DNA of 64,000 bases, from the NCBI RefSeq assembly GCF_007992435.1, contig NZ_BKAG01000007.1, positions 124,001 through 188,000 on the forward strand, in the 5' to 3' direction. The DNA comes from Prosthecobacter gellanilyticus (GTDB taxonomy: Bacteria > Verrucomicrobiota > Verrucomicrobiia > Verrucomicrobiales > Verrucomicrobiaceae). This document shows positions 5,755 to 64,000 of the stretch, one piece after another; the stretch's first letter is position 1, and every line of letters starts with the position of its first letter. Made by a program: the position numbers and the translations under genes. The notes beneath the pieces were generated by a model. That model saw only the letters and a program-made list of their open reading frames with translations, had not been told where the DNA came from and did no database searches.

Positions 5755-6674
5755 ACAGCCACCTCCACTTCTTCACGCTTGTTGTCGGAGCGGCGCTTGG
5801 GTCCGCGGCGGTTCAGGAATTCGAGGCTGTTCACCGTGGTCAGGTCTTCAGGCAGGATGTCAGGCAGGGAGAGCTTCACGCTGGTCTTGGATTTGGATTT
5901 CCCCTTGGCATCCAGAAGTGTGTTGATGAGCTGTGCGCGCAGCTTCTTGAACTTAGGATCGTGGTTCAACGTCTTGCGGTCACGCGGACGCTCGAGATCC
6001 ACCAGGATTGGTTCGCCCAGAGTCGCCGCTGGTGATGTGGGCAGCAGCGGGATCACACGGTCGGCCAGCAGCAGCGCTTCATCAGGATCATTGGTGATCC
6101 ACAGCACGGTGGTGAGGTTCTCGCGCCAGATCTCGCTGATCTCATCCTGAATGGTGGCACGCGTGAGGGCATCGAGCGCGCTGAGAGGCTCATCCAGCAG
6201 CAAGACTTTCGGCATCATGGCGAGTGTGCGTGCCACGGAAACACGCTGGCGCATGCCTCCGGAGAGCTCTTTCGGCAGCTTGTGGGCCGCAGGAGTGAGC
6301 TTCACCATGTCGATGTATTTCTTCACATGCTCCTTCCGCTGCTCCTTGGTCCAGTCTTTGAAGACTTCATCGACCGCGAGAGCGATATTTTCCGTGACGT
6401 TGAGCCATGGAAGCAGGGAGTAGTTTTGGAAGACGAGACCACGGTCAGGGCCTGGCTCCGTGATCTTCTTGCCTTCAATAGTGGCTTCACCGGAATCCGG
6501 CTTCACAAGCCCGGAGATCAGATTGATCAACGTGCTTTTGCCAGATCCGGAATAACCAACGATGACGACGAACTCGCCTTCTTCGAGCGAGAGATTAATA
6601 TCCTTGAGGACTTCAGAGCGGTTACCATTGTAGCCGTAACCCTTTGAAGCATTCTTGATCTCAATAAGCGGCAT
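5751..6674 (-). CDS. Second nitrate ABC transporter ATP-binding protein (NrtC/NrtD-like)
   Basis: This 307-residue ATPase has Walker [11 protein letters not shown]-loop [10 protein letters not shown], signature [15 protein letters not shown], Walker [14 protein letters not shown], and an H-loop read as ITNDPDEAL, where the usual histidine is replaced by asparagine. That substitution would weaken hydrolysis at one site and suggests an asymmetric heterodimer with the adjacent, canonical ATPase. Unlike cyanobacterial NrtC, no solute-binding domain is fused; the tail after about residue 250 is short and basic. It starts 19 bp after the nrtB stop and overlaps the next ATPase gene by 4 bp. Confidence 0.86.
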
Positions 6675-6693
6675 ATTTTGATCAGGTGGAGGG

Positions 6694-7581
6694 TTAAGCT
6701 GTCTTGAAGCGGCCTTCGATCACACTCATGAGGCGGTCGAGGATGTAGCCGATGACGCCGATGGTGAGGATGCAGAGAATGATGTGGGCGTAGCTGTTGG
6801 CGTTGTATTGCTGCCAGAGGAAGCCACCCACTCCTGGACGTCCGGTGAGCATCTCCACAGCCACGATCACCAGCCAGGCGATGCCGAGGCTGAGGCGGAA
6901 ACCGGTGAACATGTAAGGCAGCGTGGCAGGCACGAGGACCTTCCAGAGCGTCTTCCACTTCGAGAGCTTCAGGACCTTCGCGACATTCAGATAGTCCACC
7001 GGCACAGCTCGCACGCCGACGGCGGTGTTCATGACCGTGGGCCACATGGCGCAGACGGCAATGGTGAAGAGCGCGGCGGCATCTGATGCACCAAAGGTGG
7101 TTCGGCCATCGCCGTTGACGATCTTCACACCACTGAAAAGGATCATGCCCAGCGGCAGCCAGGCGAGAGGGGAAACAGGACGCAGGACCTGGATCAGCGG
7201 ATCAAAGGCCATGGTAAACTTTTTGGAAAGGCCGAGGAAGAAGCCGATCGGTGTGCCAATGATGAGAGCGATGGCGTAACCCTGTGCCACCAGCACCAGT
7301 GACTCCCAGGTGAAGCGGAGGATGCCCTGGTCGAGCTCACCACGCTTGGCGAAAGGCTCGGTGATGTAGAGCTTGCTGGCCGTCCAGGTTTCCACCGGTG
7401 TGGGAAGGTCGGCGGAGAGGCCTTCACGCTTGGTGACCTTGATCTTGTCTCCGAAGTCATCGACCTTTTCAGTGATGACAGATTTGCCCGCGACCAGATA
7501 CCAGAAGAGGCAGGTCACAAGGATGGCTGCGAGCGGAAGGAAGAGGGCGTCGAGTTTGTATTTGTGGAGGAGGTGTTGCAT
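6694..7581 (-). CDS. nrtB: Nitrate ABC transporter permease (NrtB-like)
   Basis: This 295-residue inner-membrane permease of the NrtB/SsuC class has a first helix at about residues 15-32 ([20 protein letters not shown]) and a periplasmic segment. It then has about five more helices, with the cytoplasmic EAA-type loop near ...[18 protein letters not shown]. The long first loop (about residues 33-80) is larger than in many family members. It sits between the binding protein nrtA and the ATPases, which is the standard order. A hairpin in the nrtA-nrtB gap may lower its expression relative to the binding protein. Confidence 0.9.
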
Positions 7582-7619
7582 GGGCGGCGGCTGTTCTTGG
7601 GCATGGACTCCCCGTGGCC

Positions 7620-7645
7620 CCGGCTGCGTGTTTCTTCACAGCCGG
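7620..7645 (-). terminator. Hairpin in the nrtA-nrtB gap
   Basis: CCGGCTG (7620-7626) and CAGCCGG (7639-7645) pair over 7 bp with a 12-base loop. It is just downstream of nrtA on the transcribed strand and has no T-run. Binding-protein genes often carry such an element to raise their mRNA level over the distal transporter genes. Here it is read as an attenuator or 3'-protecting stem, not a full terminator. Confidence 0.45.
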
Positions 7646-7683
7646 AGCTTTAGGGCGTTGAGGTCTCGGGGGAGAGAGGGGGA

Positions 7684-8976
7684 TTAACCTTTCATGGTCT
7701 TGACCGCGAAGGACGCGGCGTAAGCTTCGAGGTCGCCTTTGGGATCAAAGGTCACGCCGTCGAAGAGAGTCTCAGCGGCATCGCTGGCACCTCCGTGGGC
7801 ATAACCAATTTCCTTCATGGCTTCCTCATAGATATCGGCACGCATCACCTGCTTGGCCACGCCTTCATAGTCAGGCGCGCCTTCGGTGAAGCCCCAGCGG
7901 CGGAGCTGGGTGAGCCACCACTTGCCATACTTGGCCTGCGGGTAGTTGCAGTTACGATCACTGAAAATCATGTAGTTCGGGTCCTTGAACTTGCGTCCGT
8001 CACCCATGTTATACTTGCCCTGCAGACGGCCGAGGATGGTCTCAGGCGGGCAGTTGATGTAAGTGGCGGCGCTGACGATGTTTGCCTGCTCCTCGCGGTT
8101 CTCCATCTTGTCCAGCCAGACGCTGGCTTCATGGAGGGCTTTGAGCACGGCCTTGACGGTCTTCGGATTTTTGGCGGTGAACTCCTCGGTGAAGGCGCAG
8201 ACTTTTTCCGGATGATCCTTCCAGATGGCCTGGGTGGTGATGGCGGTATAACCAATGTCTTCAGCAATGGTCTTGGCGCCCCAGGGCTCGCCGACGCAGA
8301 AGCCATCCATTTTGCCAACCTTCATGTTAGCCACCATCTGCGGAGGCGGCACGGTGATGAGGGAGATGTCAGCACCTGCACCTGCGGCGTCGCCAGGATT
8401 GATCCCACCTGCGGCGAGGTAGTAGCGGGTCCACATGGCGTGCGTGCCAGGCGGGAAGGTCATCGCGAAGGTCAGAGGATTGCCCTTGGCCTTGGCTTCA
8501 TCGACGAAGGGCTTAAGAGCTTTCGGATCATCACCGACCTTGCCTTTGAAGGTGTTTGCCAGCGTGATGGCCTGGCCGTTGCGGTTCAGGATGAAGGGGG
8601 CGACCATGGGCTTCTTCGGCGCGCCGCCGAGGCCCATGGTGGAGGCGATGGGCATGCCTAACAACATGTGTGTTCCCTGGATGTCGCCGTTGGTCAGGGA
8701 GTCGCGGATGGCGGCCCAGCTGGCACCTTTGCTGACGGTGGAGTTGATGCCGTATTTTTTGAAGAGACCCTTCTCGTGAGCGACGACGATGCTGGAGCAG
8801 TCCGTGAGGGCGATGATGCCCAGCTTCACGTCCGGCATTTCCGGAGAGTCGTCCGCATAAGCAGAGCCGACCCAGCCGGCGGGCAGGCCGGAGAAGAGGG
8901 TGCCGAGACCGGCGTTGGCGCTGCGCTGGAGGAGGGTGCGGCGGGAAAGAGTGCCTGTGGTGGGGGAGGGTTTCAT
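7684..8976 (-). CDS. nrtA: Nitrate-binding protein of ABC transporter, Tat-exported (NrtA-like)
   Basis: This 430-residue solute-binding protein begins MKPSPTTGTLSRRTLLQRSA. The twin-arginine motif SRRTLLQ plus hydrophobic stretch indicates Tat export. The start at 8976 is chosen because it gives this signal and forms an ATGA overlap with the upstream gene; a longer reading adds 36 unlikely residues. Family motifs include LTDCSSIVVAHEKGLFKKYG, HAMWTRYYLAAGGINP, PPPQMVANMKVGKMDGFCVGEPW and WWLTQLRRWG. These resemble NrtA/CmpA, which bind nitrate or bicarbonate in the periplasm; nitrate is favoured by the neighbours. No lipobox is seen. Confidence 0.9.
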   Translation of the reverse strand: MKPSPTTGTLSRRTLLQRSANAGLGTLFSGLPAGWVGSAYADDSPEMPDVKLGIIALTDCSSIVVAHEKGLFKKYGINSTVSKGASWAAIRDSLTNGDIQGTHMLLGMPIASTMGLGGAPKKPMVAPFILNRNGQAITLANTFKGKVGDDPKALKPFVDEAKAKGNPLTFAMTFPPGTHAMWTRYYLAAGGINPGDAAGAGADISLITVPPPQMVANMKVGKMDGFCVGEPWGAKTIAEDIGYTAITTQAIWKDHPEKVCAFTEEFTAKNPKTVKAVLKALHEASVWLDKMENREEQANIVSAATYINCPPETILGRLQGKYNMGDGRKFKDPNYMIFSDRNCNYPQAKYGKWWLTQLRRWGFTEGAPDYEGVAKQVMRADIYEEAMKEIGYAHGGASDAAETLFDGVTFDPKGDLEAYAASFAVKTMKG

Positions 8977-57189: not shown

Positions 57190-57855
57190 TCACGATTTCT
57201 GAGTGAGGCGATAGCCGATGCCGGGTTCATTTTTGATCTCCAAAGAGGAGCCTTCCAGCTTCTTGCGCAGATGATTGGCGTAGACACGCAGGTAGTGGCT
57301 TTGCTGCTCGGCCTGCGGTCCCCACACGCTGCGCAGGAGTTGTTTCAAGGTCACTACCTTGCCCGAATGTTTCACCAGGAGGGCCAGCAGGGCATACTCG
57401 GTTGGCGTCAGCTTGAGAGGTTGCTCGTGGAGCAGGGCTTCATGGTGCACGGGATCTAGCGTGAGGTCCCCGAAGCGCAGATTGGCTGAGTCCTCGGCCT
57501 GCTGACGACGCTGGATGGCGGTGAGGCGTGCGATGAGTTCGGCGGTTGAAAAAGGCTTCGTCACATAGTCGTCCGCACCAGCATCGAAAGCTGCGAGTTT
57601 GACAGCTTCCTGGTCACGCACGCTGAGGATGAGCACCGGTGTCTGGCTCCACTCGCGCAGACGCTTCAGCACCTCCACGCCATCCATGTCCGGCAGACCT
57701 AGATCGAGCAGGATGACATCCGGCTTTTGAAACACGGCCGCCTGCAGGCCGAGCTGGCCGCTCTCCGCTTCATGCACGGTGTAGTCTCTGGACTGCAGGG
57801 CCATGCGCAGCAGCCTGCGGATCTGGATTTCATCGTCGATGACGAGCGCGGTCAT
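57190..57855 (-). CDS. kdpE: KdpE-type response regulator
   Basis: This 221-residue OmpR/PhoB-class regulator has a receiver domain (MTALVIDDEIQIRRLL; phospho-Asp in VILLDLGLPDMDG near residue 52; KPFSTAEL). A C-terminal winged helix (TPTEYALLALLVKHSGKVVT and HYLRVYANHLRKKLEG) completes it. It follows kdpD with only a repeat-filled 18-bp gap and is the cognate regulator of the kdp operon. A REP copy (57859-57882) ends 4 bp before its ATG, so any ribosome-binding site lies in the hairpin. Confidence 0.93.
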   Translation of the reverse strand: MTALVIDDEIQIRRLLRMALQSRDYTVHEAESGQLGLQAAVFQKPDVILLDLGLPDMDGVEVLKRLREWSQTPVLILSVRDQEAVKLAAFDAGADDYVTKPFSTAELIARLTAIQRRQQAEDSANLRFGDLTLDPVHHEALLHEQPLKLTPTEYALLALLVKHSGKVVTLKQLLRSVWGPQAEQQSHYLRVYANHLRKKLEGSSLEIKNEPGIGYRLTQKS

Positions 57856-57858
57856 GGT

Positions 57859-57909
57859 GTAGAACGAGTTTTCTTACTCGTTGGGAACGAGTTGGAAAAC
57901 TCGTTCTAC
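57859..57909. repeat. Inverted REP pair at the kdpD-kdpE junction (kdp family)
   Basis: R1 (57859-57882, GTA-GAACGAGTT-TTCTTACTCGTT) and R2 (57885-57909, GAACGAGTT-GGAA-AACTCGTTC-TAC) face each other. R2 encodes the VERVFQLV end of KdpD and R1, with altered loop bases, supplies its TAA stop codon (57874-57876). Confidence 0.9.
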
Positions 57910-60588
57910 GGGCGGAGTGAGCTGGGAGATTGGTTCTATCTCGATAACAAACTCGGCTCCGCCTTCGGGATGATTATGCGCGCTGATGCGCCCGCCGAGA
58001 GCCTGGATGAAGCCTTTGGTGATGGCCAGCCCAAGGCCTGTCCCACCCGCAGGAGATCCAGGCGCACGGTAAAATTTGTCAAACACCCGCAGTTCGGCAC
58101 CGGGTGGCAGGCCTGGCCCATGATCGCGAAGAGTGATCCGCAATCGCTGGTCTTGCAGGCGTGCATGCAGATCGATCTCGGTGCCAGGTGGTGTGTAGAC
58201 AGCCGCGTTGTGCAGAATGTTGGTTAGGGCTTGTGCGAGCAGCGTGAAGTCGATCTTCAACAGCGGAAGATCGTCCGCGATGTGAAGGCGCACGGGATGC
58301 GTTTCCAAAGCAGCGCCGACGGTCTGCTGCGCATCCGCGATGACATCTCGCAGATCACACCAGTCGTGATGAGCGTGCAGCGCGGAGGATTCGAGCCGTG
58401 TCATTTGCAGGAGGCTGTCGACCACTCGCTGAAGCCGTCGCGTGGCGGTTCGCATCTCGGTCAGATAAGGACTCTGGATGTCCTCCATCGCCTCCAGGGA
58501 GGCCTGCATGACCGCGATTGGGGTCTTGAGTTCGTGGGAGACGCTGTCGAGCAAGGTTCGGTGCAGTTTTTCGGACTGCGCCAGCACCTCCGCATGGCTG
58601 AAGGCCTGGACAAAGTGCTCCTTTTCAATCACGAGCGCCAGTTGCAGGGCAAAGGCTTCGATCATCTGCCGCGTGGCAAAGTCCAGGCGTGTTTCATCAT
58701 CCAGATGCACACCGAGCACGCCCATGGTGGCCGTGGCTGTTTGCAGAGGAAACCAAGTGGCGGCGGACTCCGGCAGTGTTTCCGTATGGCATCCGGCACA
58801 CTGTTTGTTCTCATAACTCCAGGCGATGACTCCCCACTCCTTCGCCGATGGCTGGAAGCTGCTGGCTGGATGAGCTGCCTGGGGCAGCGAGCGGTCGTTT
58901 TCACGGATCACCAGCGCTGTGTGCGCATGCAGCAGTTCATTGATACAGCGCAGCGCATCCGCGAGTCCCTTCGCAGGATCAGCGGAGAGCGCCGCGCCCT
59001 GAGTGACCCGAAGAAGAGCGTCCGTCTGGCTGGCGCGGCGACGTTCAGCAACCTCACGCATGCGCAGCCGGGAGGTGAGGCTGCCCATGCTCAGGGCCAC
59101 GATGAAGAACAGGATGAACATGATCCAGTCCTCGGCCTTGCTGATGTTCAGTGTGAACTGGGGCGGAATAAAAAAATAGTTCCAGCACAGCGCGCTCAGC
59201 GTGGCCATGGCCAGCACCGGGCCGCGGCCAAAGCGCAATGCGGCCAGCACCACCGCGATCAGGAAGATCAGCGCCACAAACATGTATCCCGTGTGCGGCG
59301 CGATGCCCCAGCACAGGCTGGCGATCACAAAGACAGAGACCAGTGCCCAGCTATATTCGCCGATGACGGAGACGGGCAGAAGCTCCCGCGGTCCGGTGCC
59401 GGACTTCTTTTCCGCTGAAGCGGCAGGCCTAACCACACAGATGTCAATGTCGCCGCTGCCCATGATGAGCTGGTCGGCGAGGGAGGCTCGCCACCAGAGC
59501 CGCTTCTCTGGCTTGCCGACCACGATCTGGGTCACATTGCGCTCGCGGGCCACACGCAGCAGGGCTTCCGCCACATTCTCACCCGTCGCGGAGATCACCT
59601 CGGCACCCAGTTTGCGGGCGAGACCAAGGGCGCGGGTGAGACGTTCCTGATCCTGGGTGCTCAGACTCGGTGAGCTTTCGATCCACACGACGAGCCAGGG
59701 GCAGTTCAGCCTTGTGGCAGCGCGGCGTGTCCAGCGGATCAGGCTCTCCGCATGCGGGCTCGGACCCACGCCGACCATGAGCCGCGCATTCGTCTTCCAC
59801 GGACTGCTGATGCGTCTGGCCCTGCGGATGTCCTCCAGATCACGGTCCACTCGTTCAGCGGTGAAGCGCAGCGCCAGCTCACGCAGTGCGGTCAGCGTGC
59901 CTGCCTTGAAGAAGCCGCTCATGGCCTCCTCCGCACGGTCACCGAGATACACTTTGCCCTCAGTCATCCGCTGCAGCAGTTTCTCCACGCTGAGGTCGAT
60001 GAGCTGGATCTCATGTGCGCGATCGAGGATGGAATCCGGCACGGTTTCCTGCACCGTCACACCGCTGATCTGCCGCACGATGTCCACCTGGCTCTCGATG
60101 TGCTGCACGTTGAGCGTGGTATACACATCGATGCCTGCATCCAGCAGCTCAAGCACGTCTTGATAACGCTTGGCATGGCGTGAACCGGGCGCATTGCTGT
60201 GTGCTAGTTCATCCACCAGCACGATCTCGGGCCGCTGCAAAAGCACGGCATCCAGGTCGAACTCTTCCAGCATGAATCCACGGTGCTCCAGCTTCCTGCG
60301 CGGGAGCATTCGCATGCCTTCCAGAAGGGCGGCGGTCTCCGCGCGACCATGGGTTTCGATGATGCCCGCGAGCATCTCCACCCCCTCTTTCATGCGCTGG
60401 CGGGCTGTTTGCAGCATCGCGTAGGTCTTGCCCACGCCCGGGCACATGCCGAGGAAGATGTACAGCCTGCCTGTTTTAGCCTCCGCTCGCACGATGTCCG
60501 CGAGGAGGGCGTCAGCGTAGGACGAGTTTTCCAACTCGTCATCCGTAGAACGAGTTTTCCAACTCGTTCGCTGTTCGTCATTTACCAT
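57874..60588 (-). CDS. kdpD: KdpD sensor histidine kinase with repeat-derived termini
   Basis: This 904-residue sensor has the KdpD N-domain with Walker A MCPGVGKTYAML near residue 49, a universal-stress-like domain, four helices at about residues 405-500, a GAF-like region, HisKA SVSHELKTPIAVMQ near 683 and a HATPase (NILHNAAVY, DHGPGLPPG, GGTGLGLAI). It senses potassium limitation and phosphorylates KdpE. Oddly, the first about 30 residues (MVNDEQRTSWKTRST, DDELENSSYAD) come from two REP copies, and the last (PPVERVFQLVPNE) from another. Its ATG overlaps the transposase stop by 7 bp. TTG or GTG codons before the Walker motif are alternative starts. Confidence 0.93.
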   Translation of the reverse strand: MVNDEQRTSWKTRSTDDELENSSYADALLADIVRAEAKTGRLYIFLGMCPGVGKTYAMLQTARQRMKEGVEMLAGIIETHGRAETAALLEGMRMLPRRKLEHRGFMLEEFDLDAVLLQRPEIVLVDELAHSNAPGSRHAKRYQDVLELLDAGIDVYTTLNVQHIESQVDIVRQISGVTVQETVPDSILDRAHEIQLIDLSVEKLLQRMTEGKVYLGDRAEEAMSGFFKAGTLTALRELALRFTAERVDRDLEDIRRARRISSPWKTNARLMVGVGPSPHAESLIRWTRRAATRLNCPWLVVWIESSPSLSTQDQERLTRALGLARKLGAEVISATGENVAEALLRVARERNVTQIVVGKPEKRLWWRASLADQLIMGSGDIDICVVRPAASAEKKSGTGPRELLPVSVIGEYSWALVSVFVIASLCWGIAPHTGYMFVALIFLIAVVLAALRFGRGPVLAMATLSALCWNYFFIPPQFTLNISKAEDWIMFILFFIVALSMGSLTSRLRMREVAERRRASQTDALLRVTQGAALSADPAKGLADALRCINELLHAHTALVIRENDRSLPQAAHPASSFQPSAKEWGVIAWSYENKQCAGCHTETLPESAATWFPLQTATATMGVLGVHLDDETRLDFATRQMIEAFALQLALVIEKEHFVQAFSHAEVLAQSEKLHRTLLDSVSHELKTPIAVMQASLEAMEDIQSPYLTEMRTATRRLQRVVDSLLQMTRLESSALHAHHDWCDLRDVIADAQQTVGAALETHPVRLHIADDLPLLKIDFTLLAQALTNILHNAAVYTPPGTEIDLHARLQDQRLRITLRDHGPGLPPGAELRVFDKFYRAPGSPAGGTGLGLAITKGFIQALGGRISAHNHPEGGAEFVIEIEPISQLTPPVERVFQLVPNE
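60517..60569. repeat. Two direct REP copies inside the kdpD 5' end (kdp family)
   Basis: R3 (60517-60540, GTAG-GACGAGTT-TTCC-AACTCGTC) and R4 (60545-60569, GTAG-AACGAGTT-TTCC-AACTCGTTC) lie in the same orientation, 4 bases apart. On the coding strand they are read in different frames as RTSWKTRST and DELENSSYAD. Confidence 0.92.
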
Positions 60589-61316
60589 GGTTCGTCCTCG
60601 GGGTGAAAAATGGGTGGTTCTTCTTTGAGAACGGGTTGGAAAACCCGTTCTACGTTGAGGGTCCGCTCGGCAAACCAGGCGGTGAAGGTTCCGTCATGTA
60701 GATTCGCCTTGGCGGGATTGCTGGCGATGTAGCGCATCACTTTTAGCCAGTGGGTCTCATCGCGAATGATGCGGTTCCAGCTGTCTTCCTGCCAGAGCTG
60801 GCCTTTCTGACCCAGCTTCTTGTTCATCTCGCGAGCCGTGAAACCTTTCCACGATTTCAGCACGTCTTCAATCTGCCATTCCGCGAGTGCACGTGCCGCG
60901 AGATGCACATGATTGGGCATGATGACGAAGCCATGCATGCTGCTGCGTTCGTTTTCGAAAAACATCAGGGCGTCGGCGACGATTTGACGGATCGCGGGGT
61001 CGCGCAGCAGGCATGCGCCGTGGCATTGGTCCATGACCGACTCCATTTTCCGCCAGGTGCGACGCTGCCAGGCCGCATACTCTTCCTGCATGTGTTCGTC
61101 GGGGACCTCTTGCTGGGCGATCCGCCTCTCCCAGGCTTCCTTTTCCATCTGCGCCTCCTGCACGACCTCGCGTGGCAACGAATCATTCAGCCGGAAGGTG
61201 ATGAAAAATGTCACACCTGGCTGCCGCCAGTGGGGCAGGTTTCGCTCATAGTTCCAAAAATCACCCTGCCATTTGAAGGGTTTGAAGTCTTCTGGAATGA
61301 TGAAGTCGGGTGGCAT
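60582..61316 (-). CDS. REP-associated tyrosine transposase (RAYT, IS200/Y1 fold)
   Basis: This 244-residue single-strand transposase has the HUH motif IMPNHVHLAARAL at about residues 129-141 and the C-terminal helix with catalytic tyrosine in HWLKVMRYIASNPAKANL near residue 194. The N-terminal PHWRQPGVTFFITFRL is typical of RAYTs abundant in Verrucomicrobia. RAYTs are single-copy, non-IS genes that recognise REP hairpins with a GTRG foot, as seen around this gene. It lies between kdpC and kdpD, is co-directional, and overlaps the kdpD start by 7 bp. Its own C-terminus includes NVERVFQPVLKEEPP, encoded by REP copy R5. Confidence 0.9.
   Translation of the reverse strand: MPPDFIIPEDFKPFKWQGDFWNYERNLPHWRQPGVTFFITFRLNDSLPREVVQEAQMEKEAWERRIAQQEVPDEHMQEEYAAWQRRTWRKMESVMDQCHGACLLRDPAIRQIVADALMFFENERSSMHGFVIMPNHVHLAARALAEWQIEDVLKSWKGFTAREMNKKLGQKGQLWQEDSWNRIIRDETHWLKVMRYIASNPAKANLHDGTFTAWFAERTLNVERVFQPVLKEEPPIFHPEDEPW
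60629..60653 (-). repeat. REP copy with compensatory stem change (kdp family)
   Basis: GAACGGGTT-GGAA-AACCCGTTC-TAC keeps a perfect 9-bp stem even though both arms differ from the consensus (GAGTT to GGGTT, AACTC to AACCC). It lies in the 3' end of the transposase gene and is translated as VERVFQPVL. Confidence 0.92.
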
Positions 61317-61326
61317 GGCGTGGATG

Positions 61327-61409
61327 GTAAAACGAGTTTTCCAACTCGTTCGGTTTGGGTTTGGGTGTTGACGTTACTTGGAGGGAACGAGTTGGAAAAC
61401 TCGTTCTAC
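61327..61409. repeat. Inverted REP pair in kdpC-transposase gap (kdp family)
   Basis: R6 (61327-61351, GTAAAACGAGTT-TTCC-AACTCGTTC) and R7 (61385-61409, GAACGAGTT-GGAA-AACTCGTTC-TAC) flank a 33-bp spacer. R7 is inside the end of kdpC and encodes VERVFQLV; the kdpC stop follows 9 bases later. Confidence 0.92.
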
Positions 61410-61988
61410 GTTGTCCAGCGCCAGGTTGAGCTCGAGCACATTCACACCTGCGTCACCGAGGATGCCAAGGTCAGGCTTCGTGGTGTTTGCGATGATGAGT
61501 TCTTTTACTTTTTCGATGCTGAGGTTGCGGGCCTTGGCGACGCGAGCGGCCTGCAGTTCGGCGTTTTTCACGCTGATGTGTGGATCGAGACCACTGCCCG
61601 AGGCGGTGACCGCATCCGCAGGCACAGCGGCATCCGTGGTTAGGCCGTTCAGGGTGCGATAGGCGGCGATGCGTTCCTTCAGGGCATCATGCAGCTTCTG
61701 CGAGGTGGGGCCGAGGTTGCTGCCGCTGGAGCTTGCGGCATCGTGACCACTGCCCGCAGCGCTGGGACGCGGGTGGAAGTAGTTTTCCGCGGTGAAGTTC
61801 TGGCTGAGCAAGGCAGAGCCGATGATCTGGCCGTCTTTGCCCGTGATCAGGCTGCCGTGCGCTTGGTCGTGGAAGGTGGCATTGGCCACCTGGGTGATGA
61901 GCAGCGGATAAGCGCCGCAGGTGATGCCACCCAGCACAAGCGTGGCAAGGATGGCGGGACGGAGTTCGGTGAAGAGAGGGTTCATCAT
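61374..61988 (-). CDS. kdpC: KdpC subunit of potassium-transporting ATPase
   Basis: This 204-residue protein has one N-terminal helix (RPAILATLVLGGITCGAYPL) and the KdpC domain: GSLITGKDGQIIGSALLSQ, NYFHPRPSAAG, VTASGSGLDPHIS and ARVAKARNLSIEKVKELI. KdpC stabilises the KdpB ATP site and tunes affinity of the KdpFABC pump. The natural end is about LGDAGVNVLELNLALD; the following NVERVFQLVPSK is from REP copy R7 and adds about 12 residues. It lies 190 bp after the kdpB stop, with a REP array between. Confidence 0.92.
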   Translation of the reverse strand: MMNPLFTELRPAILATLVLGGITCGAYPLLITQVANATFHDQAHGSLITGKDGQIIGSALLSQNFTAENYFHPRPSAAGSGHDAASSSGSNLGPTSQKLHDALKERIAAYRTLNGLTTDAAVPADAVTASGSGLDPHISVKNAELQAARVAKARNLSIEKVKELIIANTTKPDLGILGDAGVNVLELNLALDNVERVFQLVPSK

Positions 61989-62174
61989 GTAAAACGAGTT
62001 TTCTAACTCGTTGGTTGGGGGTGTTTGCGAAGGTGATTTGCGAACGAGTTGGAAAACTCGTTTTACGGTTGGGGGTGTTTGCGAAGGTGATTTGCGAACG
62101 AGGTGGAAAACTCGTTTTGCGGTTGGGGGTGTTTGCGAAGGCTGTGTGCGAATGAGTTGGAAAACTCGTTTTAC
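61989..62174. repeat. REP array: one inverted copy plus three tandem 54-bp units (kdp family)
   Basis: R8 (61989-62012) is reversed relative to R9 (62042-62066), R10 (62096-62120) and R11 (62150-62174). R9-R11 recur every 54 bp: a 29-bp spacer with GGTTGGGGGTGTTTGCGAAG plus a 25-bp REP. It fills the kdpB-kdpC gap. R10 has a mismatch in the stem (GAGGT) and R11 another (GAATG), so copies have diverged slightly since duplication. Confidence 0.92.
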
Positions 62175-62177
62175 GAG

Positions 62178-64000
62178 TCAGGCGAGGTGGAGGGTGGTGA
62201 CGATGACGTCGATGGCCTTGATGCCGATGAAGGGGATGATGATGCCGCCAGCGCCGTAGACGAGCAGGTTGCGCTGAAGTACGGCGGCGGCGCCCATGGG
62301 CTTGTAGGCCACGCCTTTCAGCGCGAGCGGGATGAGCGCGATGATGATGAGCGCATTGAAGATCACGGCGCTCAAGATGGCGCTCTGAGGTGAGGCGAGG
62401 CCCATGACGTTCAGCGGGGCGATGGCCGGGAAGGTGGCCATGAGCATCGCCGGAATGATGGCGAAGTATTTGGCGATGTCGTTCGCAATACTAAAGGTGG
62501 TTAGCGAGCCGCGTGTCATGAGCAGCTGTTTGCCGATCTCCACGATCTCAATGAGCTTCGTGGGATTACTGTCGAGGTCGACCATGTTGCCGGCCTCGCG
62601 CGCGGCCTGGGTGCCGGTGTTCATGGCCACGCCGACATCGGCCTGGGCAAGGGCAGGCGCGTCGTTGGTGCCGTCACCAGTCATGGCGACGAGGTGGCCC
62701 TCGGCCTGCTCGGCGCGGATGCGCTTGAGTTTGTCCTCTGGGGTGGCCTGGGCCATGAAATCATCCACACCGGCCTCGGCGGCGATGGCGGCGGCGGTCA
62801 TGGGATTGTCTCCCGTGATCATGACGGTCTTGATGCCCATCTTGCGAAGCTGCGCGAAGCGCTCCTTGATGCCGCCTTTGACCACGTCCTTGAGTTCCAC
62901 GACACCCAGCACCTGGCTGCCCTCGGCCACGACGAGCGGTGTGCGGCCAGCGCGGGAGGCGGCTTCGACAGCCTTCGCCACTTCAGCGGGATACACACCG
63001 CCCTTGCCTTCGATGTAGGATTTCATCGAGTCAGCGGCACCTTTGCGGATGCTGCGGCCTTCGAGATCGACACCGCTCATGCGTGTCTGTGCGGTGAAGG
63101 GAACGAAGGTGGCATGAGGAGCGGCCAGCTCACGGCCGCGGATGTTAAACTTGTCCTTGGCCAGCACGACGATGCTGCGGCCTTCCGGTGTTTCATCAGC
63201 CAGGGAGGCGAGCTGGCCTGCATCCGCGAGTTGCTGCTCCGTGATGCCGTTGGCAGGACGGAAGTCCGAGGCCATGCGGTTGCCGATAGTGATGGTGCCG
63301 GTCTTGTCCAGCAGGAGCACATCGATGTCACCCGCAGCCTCGACGGCACGGCCGGAGGTGGCCATGACATTGCGGCGGATGAGGCGGTCGATGCCGCTGA
63401 TGCCGATGGCGCTCAAAAGACCGCCGATGGTGGTCGGGATGAGGCAAACCAACAGTGCGACAAGAACAGGGATGCTGAAAGCGACACCCGAGTAGATGCC
63501 AAAGGGCTTCAAAGTGATGCACACGAGCAGAAAGATCAGCGTCATCGCTGACAGCAGGATGGTCAGGGCAATCTCGTTCGGCGTCTTCTGGCGTTTCGCG
63601 CCCTCCACCATGGCGATCATGCGGTCGAGGAAGGTGTTTCCTTTTTCGGACGTGATGCGGATCACAATGCGGTCACTGATCACTTTCGTGCCGCCGGTCA
63701 CGGCGCTGCGGTCGCCACCGCTTTCGCGGATGACGGGTGCGGATTCGCCGGTGATGGCGGCTTCATCGACACTGGCGATGCCTTCGATCACCTCGCCATC
63801 GGCGGGGATGACATCTCCGGCCTCGCAGACGACGAGATCGCCTTTCTCCAGCAAAGGGGCAGGCACATGAGATTCCTGGCCGTTCTTGAGGCGACGAGCC
63901 AGGGTATCTTTGCGGGCCTTGCGCAGGCTGTCCGCCTGGGCCTTGCCACGGCCTTCCGCGACCGCCTCGGCGAAGTTGGCAAAGAGCACGGTGAACCACA
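62178..64000 (-). CDS. kdpB: KdpB subunit of potassium-transporting P-type ATPase, partial (5' end outside window)
   Basis: About 607 residues of the catalytic subunit are visible; the N-terminus is beyond the right edge. The frame is open to the edge ([20 protein letters not shown]). Motifs are TGESAPVI (actuator), phosphorylation site [19 protein letters not shown], hinge [17 protein letters not shown] and closing helices ([16 protein letters not shown]). The phosphorylated aspartate is present. It powers ATP-driven high-affinity potassium uptake with KdpA and KdpC. It ends VTTLHLA four bases before the last tandem REP. Confidence 0.95.

Follow-up and report, generated by a model that had tools for sequence, protein, structure and literature searches.

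What is a tyrosine transposase gene doing inside a potassium-uptake operon, and how did the hairpins around it come to lie between and within the kdp genes? These questions are raised by one end of a 64-kb stretch of Prosthecobacter gellanilyticus DNA (the window: positions 124001-188000 of contig 7 of a 7.65-Mb genome in 137 contigs, here called G000). Repetitive extragenic palindromic sequences (REPs) are named for an extragenic location and most discussion treats them as intergenic DNA that is regulatory or selfish. The transposase belongs with the REP-associated tyrosine transposases (RAYTs), and the hairpins form one REP family, mostly arranged as inverted REP doublets (REPINs). From comparison with related genomes, we consider it likely that the RAYT and its GTAG-type REPs, mostly REPINs, form a REPtron that lodged in the kdp operon upstream of kdpD, with repeats that are probably translated in frame. 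The mainly intragenic, in-frame placement of the repeats was overlooked in the initial annotation of the window.

The RAYT Gene and Its Hairpin Cluster

A tyrosine transposase gene does lie between kdpC and kdpD, as first annotated. The genes of the region are as follows.

57190..57855, minus strand: kdpE (Pfam Response_reg, Trans_reg_C)
57874..60588, minus strand: kdpD, with REP-derived codons at each end (Pfam KdpD, HisKA, HATPase_c)
60582..60588, minus strand: overlap of the rayT stop and the kdpD start, ATGGTAA, from direct reading of the sequence
60582..61316, minus strand: rayT, 244 amino acids (Pfam Y1_Tnp, 32.1 bits against a cut-off of 23)
61374..61988, minus strand: kdpC, with a REP-derived C-terminal tail (Pfam KdpC)
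62178..63998, minus strand: 3′ part of kdpB (Pfam E1-E2_ATPase, Hydrolase); the rest of kdpB and kdpA lie beyond the window

An HxH motif (H136, H138) and Y196, which we take to be the catalytic residues of Y1 transposases, are invariant across 10 RAYT sequences. The closest solved structure is that of TnpArep (4er8; best PDB match, E 8.6e-06). The ratio of nonsynonymous to synonymous substitution rates (dN/dS) is about 0.11-0.22 when the genes of G000 and the relatives G050 and G068 are compared, with synonymous sites close to saturation, and because of this low ratio the RAYT is judged to be under purifying selection. Coexpression with kdp is plausible because rayT overlaps kdpD; the overlap reads ATGGTGA in G050 in place of ATGGTAA. 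REPs bracket the gene on both sides, so that it is flanked by two inverted REPs, and an in-frame REP (60629-60653) forms part of its final codons.

The eleven hairpins of one family reported between 57859 and 62174 were all recovered, each within three mismatches of GTAGAACGAGTTTTCCAACTCGTTC.

57859..57883, plus strand: REP with foot GTAG, overlapping the kdpD end
57885..57909, minus strand: REP, exact consensus, within the kdpD end; forms a REPIN with 57859
60517..60541, plus strand: REP within the kdpD start
60545..60569, plus strand: REP, exact consensus, within the kdpD start
60629..60653, minus strand: REP with compensated stem AACGGGTT/AACCCGTT, within the rayT end
61327..61351, plus strand: REP with foot GTAA, in the kdpC-rayT gap
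61385..61409, minus strand: REP, exact consensus, within the kdpC end; partner of 61327
61989..62013, plus strand: REP with foot GTAA, immediately before kdpC
62042..62066, minus strand: REP with foot GTAA, in the kdpB-kdpC gap; partner of 61989
62096..62120, minus strand: REP with foot GCAA, in the kdpB-kdpC gap
62150..62174, minus strand: REP with foot GTAA, in the kdpB-kdpC gap
62013..62175, no strand assigned: 54-bp tandem repeat, 3.0 copies, a single REP in each unit

Five of the eleven are wholly intragenic (three in kdpD, one each in rayT and kdpC), and a sixth overlaps the kdpD end. All eight stem pairs are intact in 8 of the 11 and seven pairs in the other 3. The claim that several copies start with GTAG held (six feet are GTAG, four GTAA and one GCAA), and the loop given as GGAA or TTCC is TTCC in nine copies and TTCT in two. 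Because they sit in the 54-bp tandem repeat, the three REPs at 62042-62174 probably arose by tandem duplication and not by three separate insertions. The rest of the window is indeed free of the family, with no copy elsewhere in the 64 kb at up to seven mismatches; three extra rows with seven mismatches each are overlapping read-backs of the same palindromes. Chance was rejected as the origin of the cluster, since ten Markov-shuffled windows gave one 7-mismatch match altogether.

The cluster runs past the window edge, across kdpB and into kdpA, for 17 hairpins in 7.8 kb. A genome-wide search for the consensus and for other RAYT genes had been suggested as a check, and it answered the proposal in part: G000 holds 39 matches to the 20-bp core when two mismatches are allowed (a reversed control pattern gave 1) and eight RAYT-like matches. 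Fifteen of the 39 copies crowd into 7.8 kb of the 7.65-Mb genome, at kdp, which agrees with the proposal of a linked unit there, but the repeats are not confined to it, and restriction of the copies to the window or to kdp was rejected. In G050 all five core matches lie at kdp.

Hairpin Structure and Pairing

Among exact REPs, 81 of 109 have an inverted partner starting 20-70 bp downstream, the arrangement of two inverted REPs that defines a REPIN; the spans are mostly 50-79 bp, and folding with DNA parameters brings paired copies into a single long hairpin. The 43 distinct partner sequences, which escape most of the bias toward exactness yet were chosen for resembling the consensus (with at most 10 mismatches), contain 34 two-sided changes that keep a base pair, compared with a mean of 8.0 and a maximum of 15 over 1000 shuffles. 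There are 38 broken pairs where the shuffles give 70.8, and 24 of the 38 fall at one outer position beyond the 8-bp stem. The unit is a GTAR foot, an 8-bp stem and a TTCC loop, because compensatory changes are kept and the broken pairs lie mostly outside the stem. Hairpin classes with the foot number 182 distinct against 0 for ten control loops, a count that is inflated because the loci were collected for REPs. Similarly, REPIN DNA compared between orthologues is invariant in 572 of 621 columns, against 2118 of 2643 in the flanks, a difference that is not taken as evidence of selection, since exact REPs were the criterion by which the pairs were chosen.

Hairpins Inside Coding Sequences

Exact-copy sites were classified by position in 16 other genomes, among the matches listed and with the kdp sites of G007, G025 and G026 and one contig-edge site excluded. 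Of these 72 sites among the matches listed, 46 lie at least 30 codons inside open reading frames (ORFs) of at least 220 amino acids, 5 lie near ORF ends and 21 elsewhere. The mainly extragenic location expected of a GTAG REP is thus not what was found. This intragenic bias marks a variant of the GTAG REP class and does not exclude the family from it, because the published class includes intragenic units.

The Kdp proteins themselves are hosts. In a comparison of 22 KdpA proteins, a REPIN encodes an insert in loop 1 of three (G000, G026 and G050), two of which (G000 and G026) also have an altered loop 2; the other 19 have neither. The KdpA insert of G050 is a different hairpin, AACGAACTTCCAAGTTCGTT, which is also found at the 3′ end of kdpD in G028 and G057 and occupies six distinct places in the DNA examined. 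C-terminal tails of KdpD are REP-derived in G000 and G007 (window family) and in G028 (AACGAACTTCCAAGTTCGTT type), and the KdpD N-terminus of G050 resembles a decayed form of that in G000. At some gene-end sites, the hairpin supplies the TAG stop of the gene. Outside kdp, DUF1549/DUF1553 proteins make up four of the six G000 host proteins scanned, and across the DUF1553 family the same variable loop carries hairpins in many paralogues, at slightly different offsets.

Other inserts were noted alongside these. An SbcC-like gene (L186 in G028 and L212 in G068) has an in-frame REPIN deep inside and a second REPIN that provides its stop codon. The KdpA proteins of L144, L145, L146, L147 and L148 have 29 extra residues at one site, with no relation to REPs.

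A Linker Filled by Several Hairpin Types

A 772-amino-acid amidohydrolase-aminotransferase protein carries a REPIN between its two domains. This enzyme was searched for by protein and hence independently of REP content, and it was found in 30 of 48 genomes of the genus with no internal stop in any match. The linker is filled in frame by hairpins in 10 of the 30, and these are of five types: window family (2), CCCGACTT stems (3, with that of G025 decayed but still in frame), GGGGCCA (3), ACCGAACT (1) and GTGG-TCCGCACA (1). Unfilled linkers measure 11-12 amino acids in 16 genomes and 15-18 in 3, and that of G024 is unclear. The hairpin types are intermixed on the gene tree, and two close pairs, G068/G066 (100/95) and G014/G007 (99/94), differ in their linker hairpins. 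In the DNA examined, two of the types are repeated outside this gene, the window family and GTGG-TCCGCACA, the latter in 11 places; the GGGGCCA type has one near match elsewhere, and the CCCGACTT and ACCGAACT types have none. Linker hairpins of these last three types are REP-like by foot and palindrome only. The idea that REPINs make gene fusions was rejected for this enzyme, which is fused in all 30 genomes, filled or empty.

Repeated insertion is not the only way to place different hairpins at one protein site. Whole alleles might instead have spread between species by recombination, and the intermixed hairpin types on the gene tree, the similar insert boundaries and the apparent movement of kdp itself between families all accord with such a history. 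The pattern is seen, however, in unrelated genes (KdpA loop 1, the KdpD C-terminus, the DUF1553 loop and this linker), and the offsets differ between DUF1553 paralogues; on balance, allele recombination as the general explanation seems unlikely, if a serious contender. A further idea goes beyond the REPtron reading: loops, linkers and protein ends may be docking sites, reusable sockets at which RAYTs or recombination between hairpins exchange a REPIN, in frame, for one with another stem type. We regard this as doubtful, and more so because three of the linker types are REP-like by foot and palindrome only.

Linkage of the RAYT to kdpD

RAYT genes were searched for in overlapping sets of 56, 387 and 43 genomes. 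A RAYT at least 69% identical to that of the window occurs in three other genomes: G050 (69%), G068 (75%) and G025 (75% and 82%, in two pieces). The close RAYTs of G000, G050, G068 and G025, which span two families, all (4 of 4) lie directly upstream of a kdpD-type gene with REPs of the family around them; in G068 and G025 this neighbor is an additional short kdpD with an additional kdpE after it. More distant RAYTs (at most about 55% identical) have no kdp gene nearby on the stretch examined at any of 20 loci. Nineteen of these other 20 loci are without a hairpin of the window family, and the remaining one has a pair at a distance of about 6.4 kb. The linked RAYT-REP unit proposed at kdp is therefore upheld by the flanking REPs, the shared kdpD neighborhood and the local crowding of copies.

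The presence of the same neighborhood in a second family invites the question of transfer. LigA of G050 is 53% identical to that of G000, compared with 77-88% for members of the window genus. KdpB of G050 is 94% identical to that of G007, a member of the window genus, versus 89% to the best of G050's own family, although KdpB alone is too conserved to decide transfer. The kdp genes of G050 group with those of G007 with support of 93/98 in a tree without outgroup. G050 probably acquired its kdp genes horizontally together with its REPtron, a conclusion with moderate support from the sequence comparisons. Contamination of G050 by a sister of G000 is unlikely, as a flanking gene on the same 19-kb contig is 56-59% identical to the window genus. 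The best match of that gene is in G053, of G050's own family (63%), yet it fails to place the contig firmly because two other members of the family score 52-53%.

Several features of related kdp loci were recorded in passing. A second, shorter pair of kdpD-like and kdpE-like genes lies downstream of kdpE in nine compared loci (L131, L132, L133, L136, L138, L142, L145, L147 and L148). The kdpA-kdpB gap of L133, L135 and L138 holds an open frame of 364-365 amino acids with a signal-like start. The kdpC-kdpD slot, the place of the RAYT in G000, holds a small ORF (136-176 amino acid frame) with a KdpC-like end, LQLNLALDK or LQLNLALEK, in the following loci, each turned with kdpA on the plus strand.

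L136, about 6250-6950: small kdpC-kdpD ORF
L144, about 6400-6960: small kdpC-kdpD ORF
L145, about 6400-7010: small kdpC-kdpD ORF
L148, about 6480-8460: small kdpC-kdpD ORF

Do the Repeats Follow the RAYT?

If the kdp RAYT and its repeats were strictly coupled, they should be present and absent together. Of 288 genomes in the order, 18 contain exact REPs, and 15 of these 18 belong to the window's genus. Core matches are most numerous in G000 (39) and G025 (34). Most kdp loci of the genus are without window-family hairpins. Repeats in the absence of a window-type RAYT were seen at the kdp loci of three genomes, G007, G026 and G059. The kdpC-kdpD junction is visible in its entirety only in the first, where the kdp locus is complete, has a REPIN at kdpD and lacks a RAYT; the contigs of the other two do not include that junction. 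A tblastn search (E<1) of the kdpC-kdpD gaps of G007, G012, G058 and G002 found no RAYT remnants, and other ORFs are present there. Repeats at a kdp locus without the transposase had been named at the outset as a refuting observation, and the strict form of RAYT-repeat coupling is weakened because repeats occur without the RAYT at these three loci.

Several results weigh against the REPtron reading and are best taken together. A RAYT of at least 69% identity is present in only 4 of the 18 genomes that contain exact REPs and missing from 14, a count that also weakens strict coupling, and G026 and G028 hold 33 and 29 core matches, respectively, without a close RAYT. The RAYT of G025 is frameshifted. 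The best NCBIfam model for rayT, REP_Tyr_transpos (NF047646), scores three members at 63.5, 74.2 and 65.8 bits, and the window RAYT, at 63.5, falls under the cut-off of 80. Exact-copy sites were selected for exactness, so their conservation says little, and the evidence for REPIN mobility and for translation is comparative throughout. Three reasons are conceivable for the 14 genomes without one: the RAYT was lost, it falls in an assembly gap, or a second RAYT shares its specificity.

The last of these reasons can be widened into an alternative in which another RAYT, or several, mobilize the REP family, and the kdp RAYT is one driver among several or an incidental neighbor. Those 14 genomes are what such a scheme would lead one to expect, as are the RAYT-like matches in G000 (8), G026 (7) and G028 (6). 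Against it, copies crowd around the kdp RAYT, the other RAYT loci are almost all without the family (19 of 20, the exception being the pair about 6.4 kb off), another RAYT of G000 (L036) is flanked by different hairpins of its own, and RAYT loss or assembly gaps could also explain the genomes without a close RAYT. We think mobilization by other RAYTs unlikely, at little better than an outside chance.

Three further loci deserve mention in their own right. At L036 (G000:C45:24478-28116), the RAYT has four hairpins of a different family around it, CCACCCCATTCCAATGGGGTGG and near copies. L082 (G026:C38) is a RAYT with six GTGG-TCCGCACA hairpins around it, and the same type fills the aminotransferase linker of G014. 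At L129 (G026:C171), a partial repeat of kdpA follows a kdpA that has two REPIN loops, kdpB is undetected, and the operon looks broken.

A Proposed Route from Hairpin to Protein

Returning to the REPtron reading, a course of events can be proposed. By analogy with known RAYTs, the enzyme would recognize a single-stranded REP by its foot and hairpin, cut it and move REPINs, often to nearby sites. The REPtron would have entered the kdp operon immediately before kdpD and stayed beside kdpD-type genes in several species. Insertions that broke genes would have been purged by selection. By direct reading, the consensus REP has a stop codon in one of its six frames, and because of this the insertions that survive may be those that extend a loop, a domain linker or a protein end in frame, with probable translation. 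Sites that tolerate them would have been filled over and over, by the window family and by other hairpin types.

The hairpins might, as first suggested, affect kdp expression. It has been suggested in PMC3733652, as far as the excerpted text goes, that REPs have such roles, and hairpins could be kept at kdp as mRNA control elements for processing, stability or attenuation, with the RAYT a domesticated partner or a passenger. Paired copies do form long hairpins (with DNA parameters), and several lie between kdp genes or at their ends. Yet most kdp loci of the genus lack these hairpins, and copies occur within kdpA and deep within unrelated genes; mRNA control as the reason for the cluster is improbable. 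Mitochondrial byp elements offer a parallel for elements that are skipped. Despite the strong hairpins within conserved genes, it is highly improbable that the intragenic copies are excised from the RNA or bypassed by the ribosome and never become protein: translation is favored over skipping because the insertions identified through homology keep the frame and leave it open (all 10 filled linkers and the KdpA inserts), while at 14 loci with partial ORF overlap the stop frame lies at gene ends, as judged by eye, and the decayed G025 copy keeps its frame.

Relation to Known Systems

Copy number and location set the family apart from Pseudomonas REPINs, which are present in hundreds and are extragenic; here there are tens of copies per genome, largely intragenic. 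The comparisons that follow draw on excerpts of the cited papers. The literature that joins Verrucomicrobia, palindromic elements and RAYTs is represented by PMC3733652, which describes REPtrons and intragenic GTAG REPs, most of the latter in the verrucomicrobial Opitutus terrae, with dimers that encode 20-30 amino acids. It also describes a pair of recB genes in which different REPs occupy nearly the same position, as well as genes ended by the TAG of a REP, and places most REPs between genes. The present family shares the GTAG foot, perfect palindrome, inverted dimers, REP-flanked RAYT and intragenic REPs of that class, and differs from its mostly intergenic members in that 46 of 72 sites among the matches listed lie deep in long ORFs. 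As in the Group 3 TnpA-REP systems of Stenotrophomonas (Sm) and Marinomonas (Mb) in PMC8266576, GTAG is followed by a perfect palindrome (8 bp with a 3-nt loop in Sm), and REPs crowd at the transposase gene, which in Marinomonas was interpreted as recent local multiplication. Unlike in Group 3, the loop has four nucleotides (TTCC), the foot is often GTAA, and the RAYT is embedded in a host operon and overlaps kdpD.

The pairing of 81 of 109 exact REPs matches the REPIN of PMC3116915, in which two inverted REPs make one unit. Rickettsia palindromic elements also lie in frame in many unrelated genes (PMC10969869, PMC3733652), and the family appears to work like them but is not classed as one: those elements are about 150 bp (PMC10969869), whereas the REPINs mostly span 50-79 bp and are linked to a RAYT. 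The correlation between rayt presence and REP abundance in PMC2817692, where a rayt is defined by two flanking inverted REPs, holds only partly here. Intragenic REPs, including those of Verrucomicrobia, and the build-up of REPs near RAYTs are thus already published. Excerpts of the mainly open-access REP/RAYT literature, with the O. terrae gene list left unchecked, gave no earlier account of linkage to kdpD, of a distribution mainly within genes or of one protein site reused by several hairpin types. Literature pairing RAYT with kdpD yielded only unrelated work, as judged from titles and the starts of abstracts.

Implications

This RAYT-linked family is mainly intragenic and apparently gives its host proteins loops, linkers and termini in frame; between close relatives, a given protein site can hold different hairpin types. 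The coexistence of empty, filled and decayed alleles makes the contribution of mobile hairpins to protein sequence directly testable. If the docking-site idea were true, protein linkers would turn over as exchangeable cassettes across the genus, and the swapping would be linked to stress through joint translation of the RAYT and KdpD, the potassium-starvation kinase. Regardless of that idea, the stable RAYT-kdpD neighborhood raises the question of whether REP mobility is tied to potassium stress.

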